Positions 47,151 to 56,866 of a DNA stretch of 64,000 bases are shown here, in pieces. The DNA is taken from positions 248,001 to 312,000 of the forward strand of contig NZ_CP019606.1 in assembly GCF_001997345.1 (NCBI RefSeq), read 5' to 3'. A program made the translations under genes and the position numbers. Below the pieces are notes generated by a model. That model was given only the letters and a program-made list of their open reading frames with translations, made no database searches and was not told where the DNA came from. Each line of letters begins with the position of its first letter. Within the stretch, counting starts at the first letter, position 1. This DNA is from Tessaracoccus aquimaris (GTDB lineage: Bacteria; Actinomycetota; Actinomycetes; Propionibacteriales; Propionibacteriaceae).

Positions 47151-47167
47151 TCACCCCGGCTGGGTGA
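47151..47167. promoter_or_regulatory. Palindrome site 1 (TCACCC-N5-GGGTGA), upstream of pepA
   Basis: TCACCC CGGCT GGGTGA, followed by TG, ends 35 bases before the aminopeptidase ATG. It is almost identical over 22 bases to the site at 53604 and shares spacing and arms with the site at 51452. Confidence 0.6.
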
Positions 47168-47202
47168 TGACCCGTCCATGCGCCCGCCGCAAGGCTTGTC
47201 GC

Positions 47203-48693
47203 ATGCACACAGCCCCGTATCCCCCGATCGCCCTACCTGACCGCTCCGTCGAGATCGACGTCGGAACGCTGCCGGGAGTACCGGAGGAGACGGGGGCGGT
47301 CGGCTGGCTGCTGTGTGACTCAGAGACCGCCCCCGAGGCGCTCGGTGTCACGGCGGAGCGGCTCACCGAACTCGCCTTCACCGCAAAGCGCGGCACCTCG
47401 CTCCAACTCGCCGGGCCCAAGGGGCCGATCCAGGTGCTCCTTGGAGCGGGGGAACGCGCCGCCCTGAACGCGGCCGGGGTCAGGGACGCCGCCGCGGTGC
47501 TCGCGCGGGAGGTGCCACAGGCTGCCACGCTGGCGCTCGTGCTGCCTGACGGCGTGGACACGGAGGCCGCGGCTGCGGCTGCCGTCGAGGGCGTCGTCCT
47601 GGCCCGGTACGCGTACCGGATCGGGAAGGCCCCGGACGCCCCGGCGCTCAAGCGGCTGACGCTGCTCACCACGCACGAAGGGCGTCAGGCCGCCGAGGCC
47701 GGCGTGGCCAGGGGACGGATCCTGGTGCGGACGGCCGAACTGGCCCGTGACCTGGCAGGCACCCCTGGAGGAATGCTCACCGCCACCCGGCTGGGCGACA
47801 TCGCCGTCGAGGTGGGCCAGGCAGCGGGGCTCGAGGTCGAACTGTTCGGGGAGAAGGAACTGCTGGAACTTGGCTGCGGGGGGCTGCTCGGCATCAACCT
47901 GGGCAGCGTCGAGCCTCCGGTGATGGTCAAGCTCGTCTACCGCCCCGCCGGGGAGCCGAGCGGGCGGCTGACGCTCGTCGGCAAGGGCATCACCTACGAC
48001 TCCGGCGGCCTCGCGCTCAAGCCCGGCGACGAGGTGCACGCCACCATGAAGAACGACATGACGGGCGCCGGGGCGATCCTGGCGGCCATGACGGCGCTGC
48101 GTGACCTGGGCTGCGCAGCTCAGGTGACCGGCTATCTGATGTGCACCGACAACATGCCCTCCGGCTCCGCGCTGCGGTTGGGCGACATCGTCGTGATGCG
48201 CGGCGGCACCACCGTCGAGGTCATCAACACCGACGCCGAGGGTCGGATGGTGATGGCGGACGCGCTCGTCCTGGCGCGGGAGGAACCCGTCGACGCCATC
48301 GTCGACATCGCAACCCTGACGGGGGCGGCGCTCGCGACGTTCGGGCCGGAGATCGCCGCGATGCTCGGCACCTCCGACGACCTCCTCGACCAGGTGCGCG
48401 CCTCCGCGGACCGCGTCGACGAGCTGGTCTGGGAACTGCCCCTCGTGACGAACTACCGCGACCAACTCGACTCGGTCACCGCCGACCTGCGCAACCTCGG
48501 CGGCCCGACGGCGGGCACCATCACCGCCGCGCTGTTCCTCAAGGAGTTCATCGGCGACGTCCCGTGGGCCCACCTCGACATCGCCGGGCCTGCTCAGGCC
48601 TCGGCGGCGCGTGGGTGGCGCAACCGCGGAACCACCGGATTCGGCGCGAGGCTGCTTCTCGACCTCGCCCTGAACTTCCGGATCCCGGCCTAG
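47203..48693 (+). CDS. pepA: Leucyl aminopeptidase, M17 family
   Basis: A 496-aa two-metal cytosolic exopeptidase that removes N-terminal residues from peptides. The catalytic and metal residues are in VGKGITYDSGGLALKP (Lys261, Asp266) and the signature NTDAEGRMVMADAL (342-355); an MKNDMTGAG stretch lies between. The N-terminal domain is diverged, as usual. The start at 47203 is preferred; a GTG at 47164 would add 13 Arg/Cys-rich residues and would fall within the upstream palindrome. Confidence 0.92.
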   Translation: MHTAPYPPIALPDRSVEIDVGTLPGVPEETGAVGWLLCDSETAPEALGVTAERLTELAFTAKRGTSLQLAGPKGPIQVLLGAGERAALNAAGVRDAAAVLAREVPQAATLALVLPDGVDTEAAAAAAVEGVVLARYAYRIGKAPDAPALKRLTLLTTHEGRQAAEAGVARGRILVRTAELARDLAGTPGGMLTATRLGDIAVEVGQAAGLEVELFGEKELLELGCGGLLGINLGSVEPPVMVKLVYRPAGEPSGRLTLVGKGITYDSGGLALKPGDEVHATMKNDMTGAGAILAAMTALRDLGCAAQVTGYLMCTDNMPSGSALRLGDIVVMRGGTTVEVINTDAEGRMVMADALVLAREEPVDAIVDIATLTGAALATFGPEIAAMLGTSDDLLDQVRASADRVDELVWELPLVTNYRDQLDSVTADLRNLGGPTAGTITAALFLKEFIGDVPWAHLDIAGPAQASAARGWRNRGTTGFGARLLLDLALNFRIPA

Positions 48694-51346
48694 CCGGACA
48701 CCCCGACGTCGTAGAGGAGGCCGGCCGCACGGGCGACGCGGACGGCCTCCCTACGGCTTCCAACCGACAGCTTCCGGTAGATCGACTTGAGGTGCTGCTT
48801 GATGGTGTTCTCCGACACGCACAGCGCGCTCGCGATCTCCGCGTTCGAGGCCATCGTCGGAAGGTAGAACAGGACCGCGCGCTCCCGCTCGGTCAGCGGC
48901 AGCAGCGTGCGCACCTCCTCCTCCGGATCCGTCGCGATGGTGGCCAGCGCCCGCTCGACGAACTCGCGGTGCGTCCCCACCAGGTCGAGGTGTCGCCGCA
49001 GCGCCATCGCCAACTGGTAGTTCGGGCGGACCAGCGGCAGCGCGACGTCGTCGCTCGCGGCCAGGTTCAGCGCCTCTGCCATGGCCTCGACGGCCTGCGA
49101 ATCGCGACGCAACTGGTCCTCCGCTGCCGACACGGCCACCCAGGCCCGGACGGCGGGGAAGCCGACGGTGCCAAGGGTCTCCGCGACCGCGTCGCGGACC
49201 CCTGCCGGGTTGCCGGTGCTGAGCAGCAGCCGTGCCCGGGCGACCTGCACGAGGTGCGGGTTGCCGACCTCGCGGTCGTGGCCGCGTTCGTGCGTGTCGA
49301 GCAGTTGCGCCGCCCGCTCGGAGTCGTGCTGCGCCAACGCAAGGTCGACCTGGAGGCCCACCAGTTGCGGCCGAAGCGACTCGATCCCGCGCCGCGCCTC
49401 CAGCTCGCCTCCCGCGGCCCGAGGCGGCGTCGGGCACCGATCGGGTCTCCGGTGGCGAGGGCATGTCGGGCGGCGAGCAGGTTCAGTTCGACGCGGACGA
49501 ACGGGCTGAACTTGGCGCCCGCCACCTCTGCGCACCGCTGTCGCGACGCCCTGGCGGCCTCCAGGTTGCCTGCCCGAAGCTGGGCGGCCGAGCGTGCCAA
49601 CCAGGCCCACTGGGTGTCGGAGCGCGAGGCGTGCCCCTCCCGCTCCGCGACCTCGATCGCCTCCTCCGCGGTCGCGCGCGAACGGTCGACCCAGCCCGCC
49701 ATGCCCTCCGCGACGGCGATCAGGCCGCGCGTGTAGACCTCGGTGAATGCGGTGTGCTCCTCGAGGGGCAAGGTGGCTGCGCCCTCGTTGAGACGCGCCA
49801 ACGCCGAGTAGGGATTGCCCGCCCACAGGTCGGCGACACCGCGGATGGTCGTGGTCAACCCGCGGTGCTCCGACCAGCCGGGCGCGTCGATGCCCCGGAT
49901 GCCGGCGAGCAGGTTGTCCGCGAGCGTCGCGGAGCGGCGCAGCGCCACCCCGTCGCTGTCGCGGTGCGCCTGGCCGGCGGTGATGAGGTGGACCGCGAAG
50001 GCCGCGATGCTGCGCCGCGGCTCGGGCAGCGTGTCGACGCCCGGCGACGCCCTGTCGAGCAGCACCGCGACCGTGGTCGCGTCGCGCTGGGTGTACGCCG
50101 CGGCCGCGAGCGTCACGGCGAGTTCCGGGTTGTCGATGGTCGCGGCGCCGGGGATCGTGGCGACCAGGTCGAGGAAGCGGTGCCGATCGGCGCCGAACAG
50201 AGCGACGGCGCCCGAACGGACCGCCAGCGCGCCCGCGAAGTCCCAGTCCTCCGAGGCGACCGCGTGCGTCAGGGCCTGCATCCACTGGCCGTGCCGCTCG
50301 TACCAGAGCGCGGCGATGCGCTGCTGCTCCTGCTCGAGCTGGGGGCGGGTGGCCTTCAGCCTGGCGTGCAGCAGCGTGTTCAGCAGCGAGTGTGCCCGGT
50401 AGCAGCCTGTGTCTGCCAGCTCATGGCTGAGCAACTGCTCGCGGGACAGGTTCTGCAGCATCTGGGCCGCGCCTGCCTCGCCGCTCAGCTCGGCCGCCAG
50501 CGGCGCGCACAGCTTGGAACACACCGAGGTGCGCTGCAGGAACTCGTTGTACGAGGACGGCAGGTTCTGCAGCACCTCCTCCCACAGGTACTCGGAGATC
50601 GGGAACGCGATCCGGCCGAAGCGGGCGATGGTCTCCGCAGGATCCGAGGCGGAACGCAGCCGAGCCGCCACCAGCCGCAGCGCGGCGGCCCATCCACCCG
50701 TACAGGTCATCAACTGGTCGAGCGTCGAGCCCTGCAGGTGGACGCCGCCCTCCGCGAGCAGCGCTCGTCCCTCGTCGCGGGTGAAGGTCAGGTCCTGGAA
50801 GCGAACCTCCGCGACGGCCTCCTCCAGGCGCATCCGCTGCAACGGCAGCGGCGGCTCATGGCGCGTCACCAGCACGATGTGCAGCCCCTCCGGCGGCCAT
50901 CGCAGGAGGTCCTCCAACCACTGGATGGTGGTGCCCGACTCGATGGCGTGCGCGTCGTCGAGGACGAGCGTCAGGCGCCCCACCCGGGCCGCGATGTCCT
51001 GCAGGAACGCGGACTCGGGGTTCAGGTGCTTGCGCAACTCGGACATCGTCTCGGGGCTTGCGATCCGCAGCGCGGCAAGCATCGATCCCCAGAACTTCGT
51101 GACGCTCGCATCGCCCTTGTCGAGGGAGACCCACGCGACGGTGCCAGCCTGGGTGCCTTGCCTGGTCCAGTCGGCCACGGCAAGCGTCTTTCCCGTGCCG
51201 GCAGGACCGGAGACAACGGTGAGCGGCAGGTGTGCGCTCTGGTCGAGTTGGGCCGTGAGTCGTGGTCGGTGGACAAACCGTTCTGTACTGATCGGGATGC
51301 GGAAACGCACCTCGTTGTATGGACGCTCACCGTAACGCTCGGCCAC
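48690..51346 (-). CDS. Large ATP-binding LuxR-type (MalT/LAL) regulator (apparent frameshift)
   Basis: About 885 aa once joined. The N-terminal STAND NTPase has Walker A GPAGTGKT (residues 47-54) and Walker B-like RLTLVLDDAHAI. A long TPR-like helical sensor fills the middle. The C-terminal LuxR helix-turn-helix is LTERERAVLFYLPTMASNAE with SENTIKQHLKSIYRKL. The frame breaks near CCC 49411-49413: one extra base gives GPRGGELEARRGIESLRPQL. The GTG at 51346 has GGGAGG 9 bases upstream and is preferred to the ATG-like start at 51394. It is convergent with pepA and divergent from the second DUF1269 gene; it likely binds the nearby palindromes. Confidence 0.88.
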
Positions 51347-51451
51347 GGAAAATCGCCTCCCTGCCGGGTAGAGATGAAAGATTGTACGTCGCATGGGCGC
51401 GCTCCGCGCCGCGACTTTTCACCATTCTTGGGCCTACCGGGCCGGAGCGGA

Positions 51452-51468
51452 TTACCCGTGTGGGGTGA
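51452..51468. promoter_or_regulatory. Palindrome site 2 (TTACCC-N5-GGGTGA) in the regulator's divergent promoter region
   Basis: TTACCC GTGTG GGGTGA followed by TG: same arms (one mismatch), same 5-base spacer and same trailing TG as sites 1 and 3. It lies 61 bases before the DUF1269 ATG and 105 bases before the regulator's GTG. Confidence 0.55.
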
Positions 51469-51529
51469 TGCCCCAAAGGGTGGCCGCGACAAGGGTTGAC
51501 ACACCCAAAGGTAGGGAGAAGAGACCAAC

Positions 51530-52018
51530 ATGTCCGAACTAATCATCATCGGATACCCCGACCACGACACCGCGGATCGGGCCAACGCGGCGGTGTTGCA
51601 GCTCCAGCGCGACCGGATCGTGAACCTCACGGGGCTCGCCGTCGTCCGGGTCGATGACGACGGCAAGCAGCACATCGACACTCCGACCAGGGTGGTCGCG
51701 ACCAGCGCGGTCGGCGGGGCGTTGTGGGGGATGCTGATCGGGTTGCTCTTCCTGGTCCCCGCGATCGGGCTGCTCGTCGGCGGCGCCTGGGGCGCCGTCG
51801 CAGGGGCGGCGGCACGGGCCGGCATCAACAGGGGCTTCCGCGAGAAGGTCGACGGGCTCCTCGAACCGGGCCTGGCGGCGGTCGTCATCCTGACCACGAA
51901 GGTCACGGGCGACAAGTTCGCGGCCGCGATGGCACCGTTCGGAGGAACGGTGCTCAAGACGTCCCTGACGGACGAGGACGAGCTGGCGTTGGCCGACGGA
52001 TTGTCGGCGACGGAGTGA
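51530..52018 (+). CDS. DUF1269-family membrane-associated protein (second copy)
   Basis: A 162-aa paralogue of the protein at 1473. N-terminal ELIIIGYPDHDTADRANAAV, a long glycine-rich hydrophobic hairpin (AVGGALWGMLIGLLFLVPAI, about residues 65-100) and a short C-terminal domain. It lacks the charged coiled tail of the first copy. AGGGAGA lies before the ATG. The gene precedes a permease by 24 bases and is probably co-transcribed with it. The function is unknown. Confidence 0.8.
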   Translation: MSELIIIGYPDHDTADRANAAVLQLQRDRIVNLTGLAVVRVDDDGKQHIDTPTRVVATSAVGGALWGMLIGLLFLVPAIGLLVGGAWGAVAGAAARAGINRGFREKVDGLLEPGLAAVVILTTKVTGDKFAAAMAPFGGTVLKTSLTDEDELALADGLSATE

Positions 52019-52042
52019 TCCACTAGTGGGGGAGTTGGGCTG

Positions 52043-53599
52043 ATGTCCGACAGCCTGATCACCCTGCTCGTGCTCGCCGTCACGGTGGTGCTGTTCGTCA
52101 TCGACCGGCTCCCCGTTGCAGGGGTCGCGATGCTCGTCCCGGTGGCGCTGTGGGCGACCGGCGTGCTGAGCCTCGAGGACGCCGTCCGCGGCTTCGGCGA
52201 CCCGACGACGCTGTTCGTGGCGTCGCTCTTCGTGGTCAGCGAGGCGTTGGAGGCGACCGGAGTGACCGCATGGGTCGGCGACTTCATCATCGAGAAGGGC
52301 GGCGACTCGCGCGCACGGCTGCTGATCACCGTGATGCTCGCCGTCGCGCTGTTGACGGCGCTGATCAGCCCCAACGGGTCGGTGGCGGCACTGACTCCCG
52401 TGGTCGTCGTGATCGCCGTGCGGGGCGGAAGGTCCCCGTCGGAACTGCTGTTGCCTACCGCGTTCGCCGCCCATGCGGGCTCGCTGCTGCTGATCACCGG
52501 CTCTCCCGTCACCGTGCTCGTCTCGGACGCGGTCGAGGAGGTGGACGGCGGACGGATGGGGCTGTTCAGCATCTCGGTGGTCGGGGTGGTGCTGCTCGTC
52601 CTGACGATCACGGTGTCGGTCCTGTTCGGTGGCAGGCTGATCCCGACGCGGAGCCCAGAACGCTCGCTGCGCGACTTTGGAGGCCACGCCGAGGTGCTTG
52701 CCCAGCACTACCAGGTTGAGGGCGAGCCGCTCATGGACCGGGGCAGCGGCGCGGCGGAGTTCATGATCGGCCCCCGTTCCGAGTTCGTCTCCGACCTGGT
52801 CTACCGCGGGATGCACACCTCAAGCGGCGAACTGGTGGTCGCCGCGATGCACCACAAGGGCCACGACGTGCGAAGCCCCATGCGGCTCGGCGTCGGTGAC
52901 ACCGTGCTGCTGCAGGGACCGTGGGAGGCCCTTGAGCGGGCCGCCGCCGACCCCAACCTGATCGCCGTCGATGACCCGGAACACGTGCGCCGCCAGGCGG
53001 TGCCGCTCGGGGCAGGCGCGAAGCGGGCCCTCGCGGTGCTCGCCCTGATGGTCGTCCTGCTTGCCACCGGCGCCTTCCCTCCCGCCGCCGTCGGCATCAC
53101 CGCGGCCGTGGCGATCGTCCTGCTGCGCGTGCTGAGGGTCGACCAGGCCTACCACGGCATCTCCTGGACCACCGTCATCCTGGTCGGCGGCATGATGTCG
53201 CTGTCGGCCGCCATGCAGGACAGCGGGGCAGCGGAGCAACTGGCCACCGGGCTCGTCGACCTGATCGGCGACGCGGGCCCGTACGCGCTGCTCGCGGGCC
53301 TGTTCGTCATCACGGCCGTCTTTGGACAGTTGATCAGCAACACCGCCACCGCGCTGATCGTGATCCCGGTCGGCATCTCGGCCGCGACGCAACTCGGCAT
53401 CTCCCCGGTTCCGGTGCTGGTGTCCATCGCCGTCTTCGCCGCCGGGGCGCTACTGACGCCGGTCGCGACCCCCGCCAACCTGATGGTGATGGAGGCTGCC
53501 GGCTACCGGTTCGGGGACTACTGGCGCCTCGGCTTGGTGCTGCTCGTGCTCTACGGGGCCGTCGGCATCCTGCTCGTGCCCTTGATATGGCCTATGTGA
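52043..53599 (+). CDS. SLC13/CitT-type permease with TrkA-C-like domain
   Basis: A 518-aa permease of the ion-transporter superfamily: two membrane halves of about five or six spans each (residues 5-205 and 330-515) with a cytosolic domain between them, GRGMHTSSGEL-like and ending LRLGVGDTVLLQGPW, that matches a single TrkA-C fold. The re-entrant SxT-type loops ISPNGSVAALTPVVVV and LISNTATALIVIPV are visible. Substrates of the family include di- and tricarboxylates, sulfate and arsenite, so the cargo is open. GGGGGAG precedes the ATG. Confidence 0.82.
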   Translation: MSDSLITLLVLAVTVVLFVIDRLPVAGVAMLVPVALWATGVLSLEDAVRGFGDPTTLFVASLFVVSEALEATGVTAWVGDFIIEKGGDSRARLLITVMLAVALLTALISPNGSVAALTPVVVVIAVRGGRSPSELLLPTAFAAHAGSLLLITGSPVTVLVSDAVEEVDGGRMGLFSISVVGVVLLVLTITVSVLFGGRLIPTRSPERSLRDFGGHAEVLAQHYQVEGEPLMDRGSGAAEFMIGPRSEFVSDLVYRGMHTSSGELVVAAMHHKGHDVRSPMRLGVGDTVLLQGPWEALERAAADPNLIAVDDPEHVRRQAVPLGAGAKRALAVLALMVVLLATGAFPPAAVGITAAVAIVLLRVLRVDQAYHGISWTTVILVGGMMSLSAAMQDSGAAEQLATGLVDLIGDAGPYALLAGLFVITAVFGQLISNTATALIVIPVGISAATQLGISPVPVLVSIAVFAAGALLTPVATPANLMVMEAAGYRFGDYWRLGLVLLVLYGAVGILLVPLIWPM

Positions 53600-53603
53600 A
53601 CGG

Positions 53604-53620
53604 TCACCCTGGCTGGGTGA
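53604..53620. promoter_or_regulatory. Palindrome site 3 (TCACCC-N5-GGGTGA), upstream of second permease
   Basis: TCACCC TGGCT GGGTGA followed by TG, 4 bases after the stop of the previous permease gene and 70 bases before the next start. Over GGTCACCC-yGGCTGGGTGATG it differs from site 1 by one base. Confidence 0.6.
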
Positions 53621-53690
53621 TGCGTGCAGGGGAACCCGCCCCCGAACCTGGAAACTCGCTTGTTTTCTGACCTCATTTTGAAGGAACCCC

Positions 53691-54899
53691 ATGAACGCGG
53701 TACTCGCATTCGTCATCGTGATGGCCATCTGGACCGTCAGCGATCTGGTGGCCAAGAAGACGAACTCCAAGCTCTCCTCGCTGTTCGTCGCCTCCATCAT
53801 CTTCCTCACCGGCTTCCTCACCGGCATCTTCCCCGACGACCTGCTCTCCTCCTCGTCGCTTCTGGCGCTCGGCGGCGTCTCCGTCGGCTTCATCATCGTC
53901 CACCTCGGCACCATGATCAGCCTTGCCGACTTCAAGGCGCAGTGGCGGACCTTCGTCGTCGGCGTCGCGACGGTGATCGGCATCGGGGTGGCGCTGCTCG
54001 TCGCCGGGCTGATCATCGGCGGCGGCGTCCACCAGGGCCGCTACGAGGGGGTGGCGCAAACCATGGACTATGTCGTGGCGGGCATCGGCGCCCTCTCGGG
54101 CGGCACCATCTCCGTCCTCATCGTGCAGGAGGCGGCGCTCGGCGTCGGCCTCACCACGGTCGCCGTCTTCCCCGTCCTGATCGCCGCGCTGCAGGGCCTG
54201 ATCGGCTTCCCGCTCGCCACTCCCATCCTGCGCCGCGAGGCCCAGCGCCTCCAGGGCGAGTACCGCGCCGGCCGACTCACCGCGGCCGACACGTCTGAGG
54301 CCGACGAGGGCAAGGTGGCGTCGAAGCTGCCCAAGTTCCTCACAACCACCGCCGGGACCCTCGTCGTGGTCGGCCTCGTGGTGCTCGCGTCGATCGGGAT
54401 CGACCGGTTGACCGGCGGCATCCTCAACACCTTCGTGGTGGCGCTGATCTTCGGCATCGCGCTGCGCGCCCTCGGCGTGTTCAAGCCGGGCGTCCTCGAC
54501 GGCATCGACGCGTACGGCCTGATGATGATCTCGATCCTGATCCTGATCTTCGCGCCGCTCGCCAACGTCGACCTTTCCGACGTCGCCTCCCTTGCCGTGC
54601 CGCTGCTTGTCGCCTTCGCGGTCGGGGTGCTCGGCATCGTCGTGTTCGCGGGCCTCGCCGGCAGGCTGCTCGGCTTCAGCTTCCCGATGGGCATCGCGAT
54701 CGGCCTGACGGCCCTGTTCGGCTTCCCCGGCACGATGATCCTTTCCCAGGAGGCCGCGCGGGGTGTCGGCGAGAACGACGCGGAGGTCGCCGCCATCGAG
54801 GGCGCGATCCTGCCGAAGATGATCATCGCCGGCTTCTCGACCGTCACCATCACCTCGGTGATCGTGACGGGCCTGATCGCCTCGCAGATCGGCCGCTGA
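53691..54899 (+). CDS. Permease resembling sodium:glutamate (GltS-like) symporters
   Basis: A 402-aa protein with about ten hydrophobic spans in two halves separated by a hydrophilic loop (REAQRLQGEYRAGRLTAADT, about residues 183-215). The glycine-rich ALSGGTISVLIVQEAALGVG and ALFGFPGTMILSQEAARGVG sit at equivalent places in the two halves, suggesting an inverted repeat with re-entrant loops as in GltS/CitS-type carriers. AAGGAA precedes the ATG. Family assignment is tentative and the cargo unknown, probably an amino acid or organic acid. Confidence 0.65.
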   Translation: MNAVLAFVIVMAIWTVSDLVAKKTNSKLSSLFVASIIFLTGFLTGIFPDDLLSSSSLLALGGVSVGFIIVHLGTMISLADFKAQWRTFVVGVATVIGIGVALLVAGLIIGGGVHQGRYEGVAQTMDYVVAGIGALSGGTISVLIVQEAALGVGLTTVAVFPVLIAALQGLIGFPLATPILRREAQRLQGEYRAGRLTAADTSEADEGKVASKLPKFLTTTAGTLVVVGLVVLASIGIDRLTGGILNTFVVALIFGIALRALGVFKPGVLDGIDAYGLMMISILILIFAPLANVDLSDVASLAVPLLVAFAVGVLGIVVFAGLAGRLLGFSFPMGIAIGLTALFGFPGTMILSQEAARGVGENDAEVAAIEGAILPKMIIAGFSTVTITSVIVTGLIASQIGR

Positions 54900-54920: not shown

Positions 54921-56866
54921 CTACCAGATCGTGACGCGTGCCTCGGGGTCGAGCCACAGGTCGTCGTCGGCGGTGACGCCGAAGGCCTCGTAGAAGGCTC
55001 CGAGGTTGCGCACGATCTGGTTGCAGCGGAACTCGTTGGGGGAGTGCGGGTCGGTCGCGAGCAGCACCTTCGCGGCCTCGGGGCGGCGCTTGCCGCGCCA
55101 GGCCTGCGCCCAGCCCGTGAAGAAGCGCTGCGCGGGCGTCAGGCCGTCGATCGGCTCGCCGTCGGGGTCGCCGCCCGCGAGCATCCACGCCTCGTAGGCG
55201 ATGTCCAGGCCACCCAGGTCGCCGATGTTCTCGCCGACCGTCAGCTTGCCGTTGACGCTTCCGCCGTCGACGCCCTCGGGGACGAGCCCGTCGTACTGGT
55301 CGATCAGCCTGTCGGCGAGCGCCTCGAAGGCCTCCCGGTCGGCGGGTTGCCACCAGTCGCGCAGCCGGCCGTCGCCGTCGCAGGTGGAGCCCTTGTCGTC
55401 GAAGCCGTGCCCGATCTCGTGGCCGATCACCGAGCCAATCGCGCCGTAGTTGACGGCGTCGTCGGCGTCGGCGTTGAAGAACGGCGGCTGCAGGATCGCG
55501 GCGGGGAAGACGATCTCGTTGCGCAGCGGATGGTAGTAGGCGTTGACCGTCTGCGGGAACATCTGCCACTCGCCCTTGTCGACGGGGGCGCCGATCCTGC
55601 CGAGCGTGTAGTCGAGCTCGAAGGAGTTGGCCGCGAGCACGTTGGCGACCAGGTCGTCGCCGACCTCAAGGGCCGAGTAGTCGCGCCACTGATCGGGGTA
55701 GCCGATCTTCGGCGTGAACTTCGCGAGCTTGCGCAGCGCCTCCTCGCGGGTGGCGTCGGTCATCCATTCGAGCTTCTCGATGGAGGCGCGGTAGGCGGCG
55801 AGCAGGTTGCCGACCAGGGCGTCCATCGCCGCCTTCTTCTCCGGCTGGAAGTGCAGGCCGACGTAGCTGCGCCCGACGGCCTCGCCGAGCACCCCCTCGA
55901 CGAGCGCGACGCCGCGCTTCCAGCGTGGCCGCTGCTCCTCGTTGCCAGAGAGCGTCTTCTCGTAGAAGTCGAAGCGCTCGTCGACGAACGCGCGCGACAG
56001 GTAGCCGGAGAGGGCGGAGATCGCCTTCCAGCGCGCCCAGGAGCGCCACGCCTCCACCGGGGTCGACGCCACGAGCTGCGCGGCGCCCTCGAGGAAGGAC
56101 GGCTGCGAGACGATCACCTCGGCCAGCTTCTCGCGGGGGATGTCGCCGCCCTCGAGGTAGGCGTCCCAGTCGAAGCCTGGGGTTGCCGCCACGATGGCGT
56201 CGAGCGACATGGGGTTGTACATGGCGCGCAGGTCGCGCAGCCGCACGCGGTCCCAGTGGTGGGCCGCGATCCGTGTCTCGAGGTCGAGCACCGCGTCGGC
56301 CTGCTCGGCGGCGTCGGCGAAGCCCGCCAGGTCGAAGACGCGGGTCAGGTGCGCGAGGTAGGCGTCGCGGATCTCGGCGTGCCCGTCCTCGCGGTAGTAG
56401 GCCTCGTCGGGGAGGCCGAGGCCCGTCTGCGTGCTGAACACCGCGTAGCGCTCCGGGTCGCCCGGGTCGGACTCCTCATACAGCGCAACCAGCGGGCTCA
56501 GGCCGTGCCGCAGCGACCAGCCAAGGTGGGCGGCGAGCGCGGAGGGGAGTCGATCGCGTCGATCCGGGCGAGCACGGGAGCCAGCGGCTCGGCGCCCAGG
56601 TCCTCGACGCGCTGCTCGTCCATGAACGAGGCGTACAGCCGGGCGATCAGCGCGTCGTCGGAGTCTGCGTCGGTCGGGGTCAGGCCCTCGATCAGGTCAC
56701 GGACATCCAGTTCGGCCGCGTCGCGCAGGTCGATGAAACCGCCCGCCGACGACTTGTCCGCGTCGATCGTCGCCGTTGCCAACCAGGCGCCGTTGACGTG
56801 GCGGAACAGGTCGTCCTGGGGGCGGATCGCGGGGTCGGAGTTGGCGAACTGGATGGCTTCGGTCAT
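54921..56866 (-). CDS. pepO: M13 family metalloendopeptidase, PepO-like (apparent frameshift)
   Basis: A neprilysin-type zinc peptidase of 648 aa once joined, the usual bacterial length. The zinc motif HEIGH lies at residues 483-487, the third ligand Glu in GENIGDLGG (near 545), and the substrate-binding NAYYHP upstream. No signal peptide is present, so it is cytosolic and would cut short peptides. The frame breaks at GGGG 56544-56547 (plus strand): one extra C on the coding strand gives DSPSALAAHLGW. TAGGCT lies 7 bases before the ATG. It is convergent with the second permease. Confidence 0.9.

Follow-up and report, generated by a model that had tools for sequence, protein, structure and literature searches.

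A palindrome with a fixed five-base spacer as the candidate operator of a MalT-like regulator in Tessaracoccus aquimaris and other actinobacteria

MalT is an activator and a catabolic regulator. LAL proteins (large ATP-binding regulators of the LuxR family), to which the MalT-like proteins belong, are numerous in actinobacteria, and to our knowledge few of them have a known operator. We analyzed a 64,000-base stretch of the Tessaracoccus aquimaris genome (NZ_CP019606.1, positions 248,001 to 312,000; hereafter the window), in which the palindrome TYACCC-N5-GGGTRA occurs three times around a gene for such a regulator. Among actinobacterial LAL proteins, SCO6993 of Streptomyces coelicolor has been described as a repressor with footprints on palindromes that lack a common consensus (PMC9628970), and a 15-nucleotide direct repeat, TnnAAnnGCGGAnTC, has been proposed for TpdR. 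The LuxR-type response regulator BldM of Streptomyces footprints on a 16-base-pair (bp) palindrome, TCACcCgnncGgGTGA (PMC4125116). Acid resistance based on glutaminase (YbaS/GlsA) and GadC is recorded for Escherichia coli, Lactobacillus reuteri, and Brucella (PMC6250119).

Judging from its position and distribution, the palindrome very probably serves as operator for the LAL regulator whose gene lies between pepA and a DUF1269-SLC13 gene pair. A whole-genome pattern search revealed three copies of TYACCC-N5-GGGTGATG in the window and none elsewhere in the 3,934,699-base genome. The pattern TYACCCNNNNNGGGTGATG was found on the plus strand at 47151, 51452, and 53604, exactly where the original prediction had placed it, with no occurrence expected from 100 dinucleotide shuffles and no place in the whole genome for the reversed pattern used as a control; the motif is therefore not scattered at background frequency. 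The relaxed 17-mer TYACCC-N5-GGGTRA matched the genome at five places and its backwards control at one; three of the five fall within 6.5 kilobases (kb) here, the other two lying elsewhere in the genome. All three sites in the window are intergenic and, as had been claimed, stand 35–70 bases before a start codon, measured from the end of the 17-mer to the ATG (Table 1). A further exact palindrome in the same genome (G000:C1:2745082, L144:7083) lies directly before a luciferase-like monooxygenase gene; conservation of this site was not found, and the identical 17-mer in another Tessaracoccus genome (G011) sits inside an unrelated gene.

The presence of the motif followed that of the regulator across the genus. 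The motif survey covered 60 genomes, 36 of them from Tessaracoccus, and the regulator search covered 39 genus genomes including these 36, with presence set at an E-value of up to 1e-40. The regulator was present in 9 of the 36 (G000, G008, G011, G013, G016, G019, G021, G027, and G030), all of which carried the motif, versus 1 of the 27 regulator-less genomes (G032), giving a Fisher p of 1.1e-7, or 3.8e-7 without the discovery genome G000. Absence of the regulator is a weaker statement than presence, because at most 23 candidates were scored in the genus search and three per genome in the distant-family search described below. Three genomes of other families among the 60 also carried the motif, the regulator search having covered the genus genomes. 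G008 carries two whole copies of the module (L042 and L041); both include palindromes, and the reading frames are broken many times in each.

To evaluate conservation at orthologous promoters, a matrix derived from 12 sites was used to score the 250 bp upstream of each gene; the 99th percentile of the random-window null was 10.4, the windows including some degenerate true sites. All 11 DUF1269/SLC13 promoters scored between 14.1 and 21.5, with the site 61–94 bp before the start, and those outside the training set (G011, L055, and L058) scored 14.1–15.3. For the second permease, 8 of 9 promoters scored 15.3–21.5 with the site 66–98 bp before the start, five of them outside the training set. The scored promoters, here and in the -10 analysis below, are related, and the counts are not independent. 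pepA proved the weakest of the predicted targets, with a strong site within 250 bp in one of nine genomes: 21.5 in G000, 10.4 in G013, 7.9 in L055 and L058, and 2.7 or less in the remaining five. In the second G008 cluster, an exact site stands 247 bp upstream of the pepA match. A site was present in one of three AbgT promoters, 58 bp before the start of the G011 operon AbgT-PepA-glutaminase. The regulator's own promoter was strong in 1 of 10 cases, G000 alone, where the site is shared with DUF1269, and autoregulation as a general feature was therefore rejected; control of the neighboring M13 peptidase gene by the palindrome was likewise rejected on promoter scoring. Because of these scores, we take DUF1269-SLC13 and the second permease as the probable core targets and pepA as a variable one, so that the originally predicted target set holds for the former and not generally for pepA; pepA and the AbgT-PepA-glutaminase operon would be targets in some species.

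Within the regulator loci, the spacer of five bases was specific. In loci fetched by regulator protein similarity alone, with spacers of 0–12 tested, the 12 family loci contained 12 TYACCC-Nk-GGGTRA sites at k = 5, distributed over 7 of the 12 loci, and none at any other k. The 16 distant loci contained 18 TCACCC-Nk-GGGTGA sites at k = 5 (in 8 of the 16), one each at k = 0 and k = 7, and none otherwise; 11 of these 16 loci are from Microbacterium, and the counts are not independent. Direct repeats of the half-site occurred at most once at any spacer in these loci.

The position of the palindrome relative to promoter elements is consistent with that of an activator site. In 54 promoters, scored with a preset -10 matrix, -10-like hexamers were concentrated 17–28 bp downstream of the palindrome, reaching 37% of promoters in an 8-base window, with peaks at 23–24 and 31 bp and values of 0–11% at offsets 1–20 and 37–56; scores climbed again at 57–76 bp, where the start regions lie. 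The peak positions would place the center of the palindrome near -44 or -52, adjoining or over the -35 region. The LAL regulator would bind as a symmetric dimer, with GGGTGA as the half-site recognized in the palindrome, and would most likely activate transcription from beside the -35 region, as LuxR-type helix-turn-helix (HTH) activators do.

The features of the locus are collected in Table 1. The first piece of the regulator matched the MalT model NF003420 with 196 bits over residues 30–450, below the cut-off of 537, and AAA_22 with 32.3 bits (cut-off 27), showing that the N-terminal nucleotide-binding ATPase domain is present; the second piece matched GerE with 54.6 bits (cut-off 23.5), showing the C-terminal LuxR-type HTH, which lies at residues 817–872 in an intact relative of 885 amino acids (P0121). 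For the second permease, 968 relatives were obtained among 7,996 scored candidates, hundreds of them in actinobacteria, with 69–77% identity over most of the 120 listed matches; among these 120, P0010 is labeled a Na+/glutamate symporter by one source. Its predicted structure had a mean predicted local distance difference test (pLDDT) score of 48, and its alignment against PDB sequences gave no matches at E up to 1. Viral contigs were also searched, with no match. By the names of matching records, the genus of the window includes Tessaracoccus lacteus and T. bendigoensis.

Table 1. Genes and palindromes of the Tessaracoccus aquimaris locus (window coordinates)
Feature	Position	Strand	Remarks
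Palindrome 1, TCACCC-CGGCT-GGGTGA + TG	47151..47169	+	35 bp before pepA
pepA, M17 leucyl aminopeptidase family	47203..48693	+	Pfam PF00883, 337 bits
MalT-like (LAL) regulator, two frames: N-terminal ATPase part; C-terminal part with LuxR-type HTH	48690..51394	-	NF003420, AAA_22, GerE
LuxR/GerE-type HTH of the regulator	48732..48899	-	Residues 463-518 of open reading frame 48690-50285 (-)
Palindrome 2, TTACCC-GTGTG-GGGTGA + TG	51452..51470	+	Between divergent regulator and DUF1269-SLC13; 61 bp before DUF1269
DUF1269 protein	51530..52018	+	PF06897, 97 bits
CitMHS/SLC13 (DASS)-type permease	52043..53599	+	PF03600, 253 bits; TIGR00785, 123 bits, below its cut-off
Palindrome 3, TCACCC-TGGCT-GGGTGA + TG	53604..53622	+	70 bp before second permease
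Second permease, membrane protein	53691..54899	+	No Pfam or NCBIfam match

Scanning named genomes with a regulator alignment yielded 26 loci. Genes for glutaminase, AbgT, and PepA follow the regulator in five of nine family loci (L050, L051, L054, L055, and L058). Pfam confirmed AbgT in L046 and L055 and glutaminase in L046, L058, and L037, and the glutaminase in relatives scored 304 with TIGR03814 against a cut-off of 255.4.

In a sample of 296 genomes of the class, CTCACCC-N5-GGGTGAG occurred in 46, at 90 places (summed from the table) versus 5 for the backwards control. One distant LAL protein used as a query on the same sample retrieved 45 genomes at E up to 1e-50, of which 15 reached 46% identity or more, a cut chosen after the list was seen, and all 15 belonged to one family (f23). 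Within this family, the motif was present in 13 of the 15 genomes with the regulator versus 0 of the 7 others in the sample (p = 2e-4). In 10 of the 11 genomes compared, no more than 120 bp separated a site from the regulator gene, the exception being G195 at 1,187 bp; among the four family genomes outside that comparison, G260 has a site 17 bp beyond the gene and G268 has sites on other contigs only. When TCACCC-N5-GGGTGA was counted genome-wide, the sites at the regulator amounted to 10 of 11 in G215 (within 17.4 kb), 2 of 2 in G351 (within 2.3 kb), 3 of 6 in G350, 6 of 15 in G205, and 6 of 17 in G225, with 0 of 2 in the Tessaracoccus genome G030 and no site in G021, both of which use the T variant; the backwards control was 0 in all seven genomes.

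Distant targets were sought among genes starting near 66 strict sites, and 30 proteins picked from 72 candidates were compared with Pfam. The families matched included DUF308 (HdeD-like), DUF7144, DUF6325, DUF6069, DUF1269, SHOCT, PLDc_N, SulP, AI-2E, MscS, aquaporin, P-type ATPase, HAD, sulfatases, and alkyl sulfatase. Among the 30, L061:9133-9861, L106:10672-11001, and L111:9629-10912 had no Pfam match, and L115 was marginal. In one distant genome, the gene behind the palindrome encodes a GadC equivalog (NF053662, 698.5, with the cut-off at 640). DUF1269 is a target common to the distant actinobacteria and Tessaracoccus. In G030, a strict site far from the regulator (L147:7556) stands 55 bp upstream of a gene for a DUF308 (HdeD-like) protein, with an alkyl sulfatase gene next in line, and links the Tessaracoccus and distant regulons; the other strict G030 site is intergenic and has no clear target.

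The original prediction of a palindrome-marked local regulon tied to a MalT/LuxR-type regulator is supported by the co-occurrence of the two in the genus, by the conserved orthologous promoters, by the spacer control, and by the distant relatives. Its proposed unit, an aminopeptidase and two permeases, was too small, as related loci add an AbgT transporter and glutaminase, and distant relatives add genes of envelope- and acid-stress type. The regulon would most likely serve glutamine/glutamate acquisition and turnover within an acid or envelope stress response, although its role may be either stress or nutrition, and the signal may accordingly be acid/envelope stress or the supply of glutamine peptides. 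Operator, activation, and this physiological role taken jointly are likely at best.

Of the alternatives, the one that survives best keeps the same regulator and operator and gives them a purely nutritional role, the uptake and hydrolysis of glutamine/glutamate-containing peptides or dicarboxylates with no stress link. This is quite possible, if short of probable, given that the targets are an aminopeptidase, transporters, AbgT, and glutaminase and that MalT is itself a catabolic regulator, but the distant targets (HdeD-like DUF308, DUF7144, DUF6325, SHOCT, a mechanosensitive channel, SulP, and a GadC-type protein) and the DUF308-alkyl sulfatase site of G030 fit it poorly. An unlikely alternative is that the LAL protein occupies the sites as a repressor released by a ligand, as might be suggested by SCO6993, reported as a repressor footprinting on palindromes (PMC9628970); the palindromes, however, lie immediately before -10-like elements, roughly the place taken by activators of this class, whereas overlap with the -10 element or the start should be more frequent for a repressor. 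MalT itself is, moreover, an activator.

Binding by an orphan BldM-type response regulator instead of the LAL regulator is improbable. The Streptomyces BldM footprint has the same half-sites (PMC4125116), and N4 palindromes are common in Tessaracoccus, but all sites here and in the LAL loci have a spacer of 5, the presence of the palindrome follows the LAL gene, and in the distant family the sites hug that gene; a BldM site with a spacer of four was accordingly rejected as the identity of the palindrome. In 12 genomes with places listed in full, N4, N5, and N6 palindromes numbered 12, 9, and 5 in the five genomes with the regulator and 11, 3, and 8 in the seven without it, and the N4 excess in the genus fits the expectation for an additional BldM-type regulon. 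Finally, that the palindromes are transcription terminators, RNA hairpins, or products of chance is very hard to sustain: sites 1 and 3 do follow the end of an upstream gene, and some other palindromes of the genus look terminator-like at gene ends, with longer stems (L148-L150), but none of the three sites is followed by a T-run, the distance is kept to the downstream start (66–98 bp in 8 of 9 second-permease promoters) and not to the upstream stop, and chance is rejected by the shuffles, with zero expected, and by the whole-genome count.

Several observations weigh against the overall explanation given here. The regulator gene is frameshifted in the assembly studied, G032 has the motif without the regulator, and the regulator match in G027 is distant, at 37% identity across roughly half of the protein, with no palindrome within its 20 kb. 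The G016 regulator locus lacks a strong site, its second-permease promoter scoring 10.4; the pepA promoters mostly lack one as well; and the glutaminase operons beside the regulator in G019, G021, G030, L055, and L058 have weak or no sites, unlike that of G011. In the distant family, G145 and G251 carry the regulator and no CTCACCC-N5-GGGTGAG. In 36 of 39 genus genomes, the same half-sites form palindromes at spacers N2-N8, most commonly N4, and bare half-sites are for this reason not diagnostic. As to the frameshift, the frame changes at about 49,376-49,418, where the two pieces overlap in their matches to one intact protein of 885 amino acids (98% and 99.6% identity), and intact genes are present in G011, G013, G016, G021, and G030, so that the break either arose recently or is an error of the assembly. 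Next to the second permease, the gene for the M13 peptidase (54921-56866) is likewise split over two open frames, which suggests indel errors in the assembly and favors assembly error for the regulator break too.

More broadly, we tentatively propose that many actinobacteria share an undescribed acid/envelope-stress regulon run by one ancient pair of LAL regulator and operator TCACCC-N5-GGGTGA, with the Tessaracoccus version rebuilt around glutamine/glutamate supply. In open PubMed Central, six spellings of the exact N5 palindrome were not found except ACCCNNNNNGGGT, and a search for the target gene families together returned only unrelated work. Should the proposal hold, the targets would largely be unnamed membrane families (DUF1269, DUF6325, DUF7144, DUF6069, DUF308, and SHOCT) together with transporters and sulfatases. 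A fixed, searchable palindrome tied to one LAL branch would allow regulons to be read directly from genomes, and such an operator would bring several families of unknown function under one control and into a physiological setting that can be tested.

Comparison with described systems places the locus near, and apart from, each of them. MalT shares the large ATPase with a C-terminal LuxR-type HTH, and the half-site GGGTGA differs by a single base from the core of the MalT box, GGA[TG]GA (PMC9628970); the regulator, however, scores far below the MalT equivalog cut-off, no maltose genes are present at the locus, and MalT boxes form a direct repeat (PMC6099782), whereas the sites here are inverted repeats with a fixed five-base spacer. 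SCO6993 and TpdR are actinobacterial LAL proteins with studied promoters, and the operators of neither match the N5 palindrome. The glutaminase-dependent acid resistance systems share glutaminase, found in relatives, and GadC, found behind the palindrome in a distant genome; they differ in that the two were never together behind the palindrome in one examined locus, and no GadC turned up in Tessaracoccus, where it was not sought. The closest known sites are those of BldM group I, which have the half-sites TCACCC/GGGTGA and a protein with a LuxR-type HTH (PMC4125116). They differ in having a spacer of four against five at all three window sites, with no N4 palindrome in the LAL loci, and in being bound by a small response regulator of development rather than a LAL ATPase.

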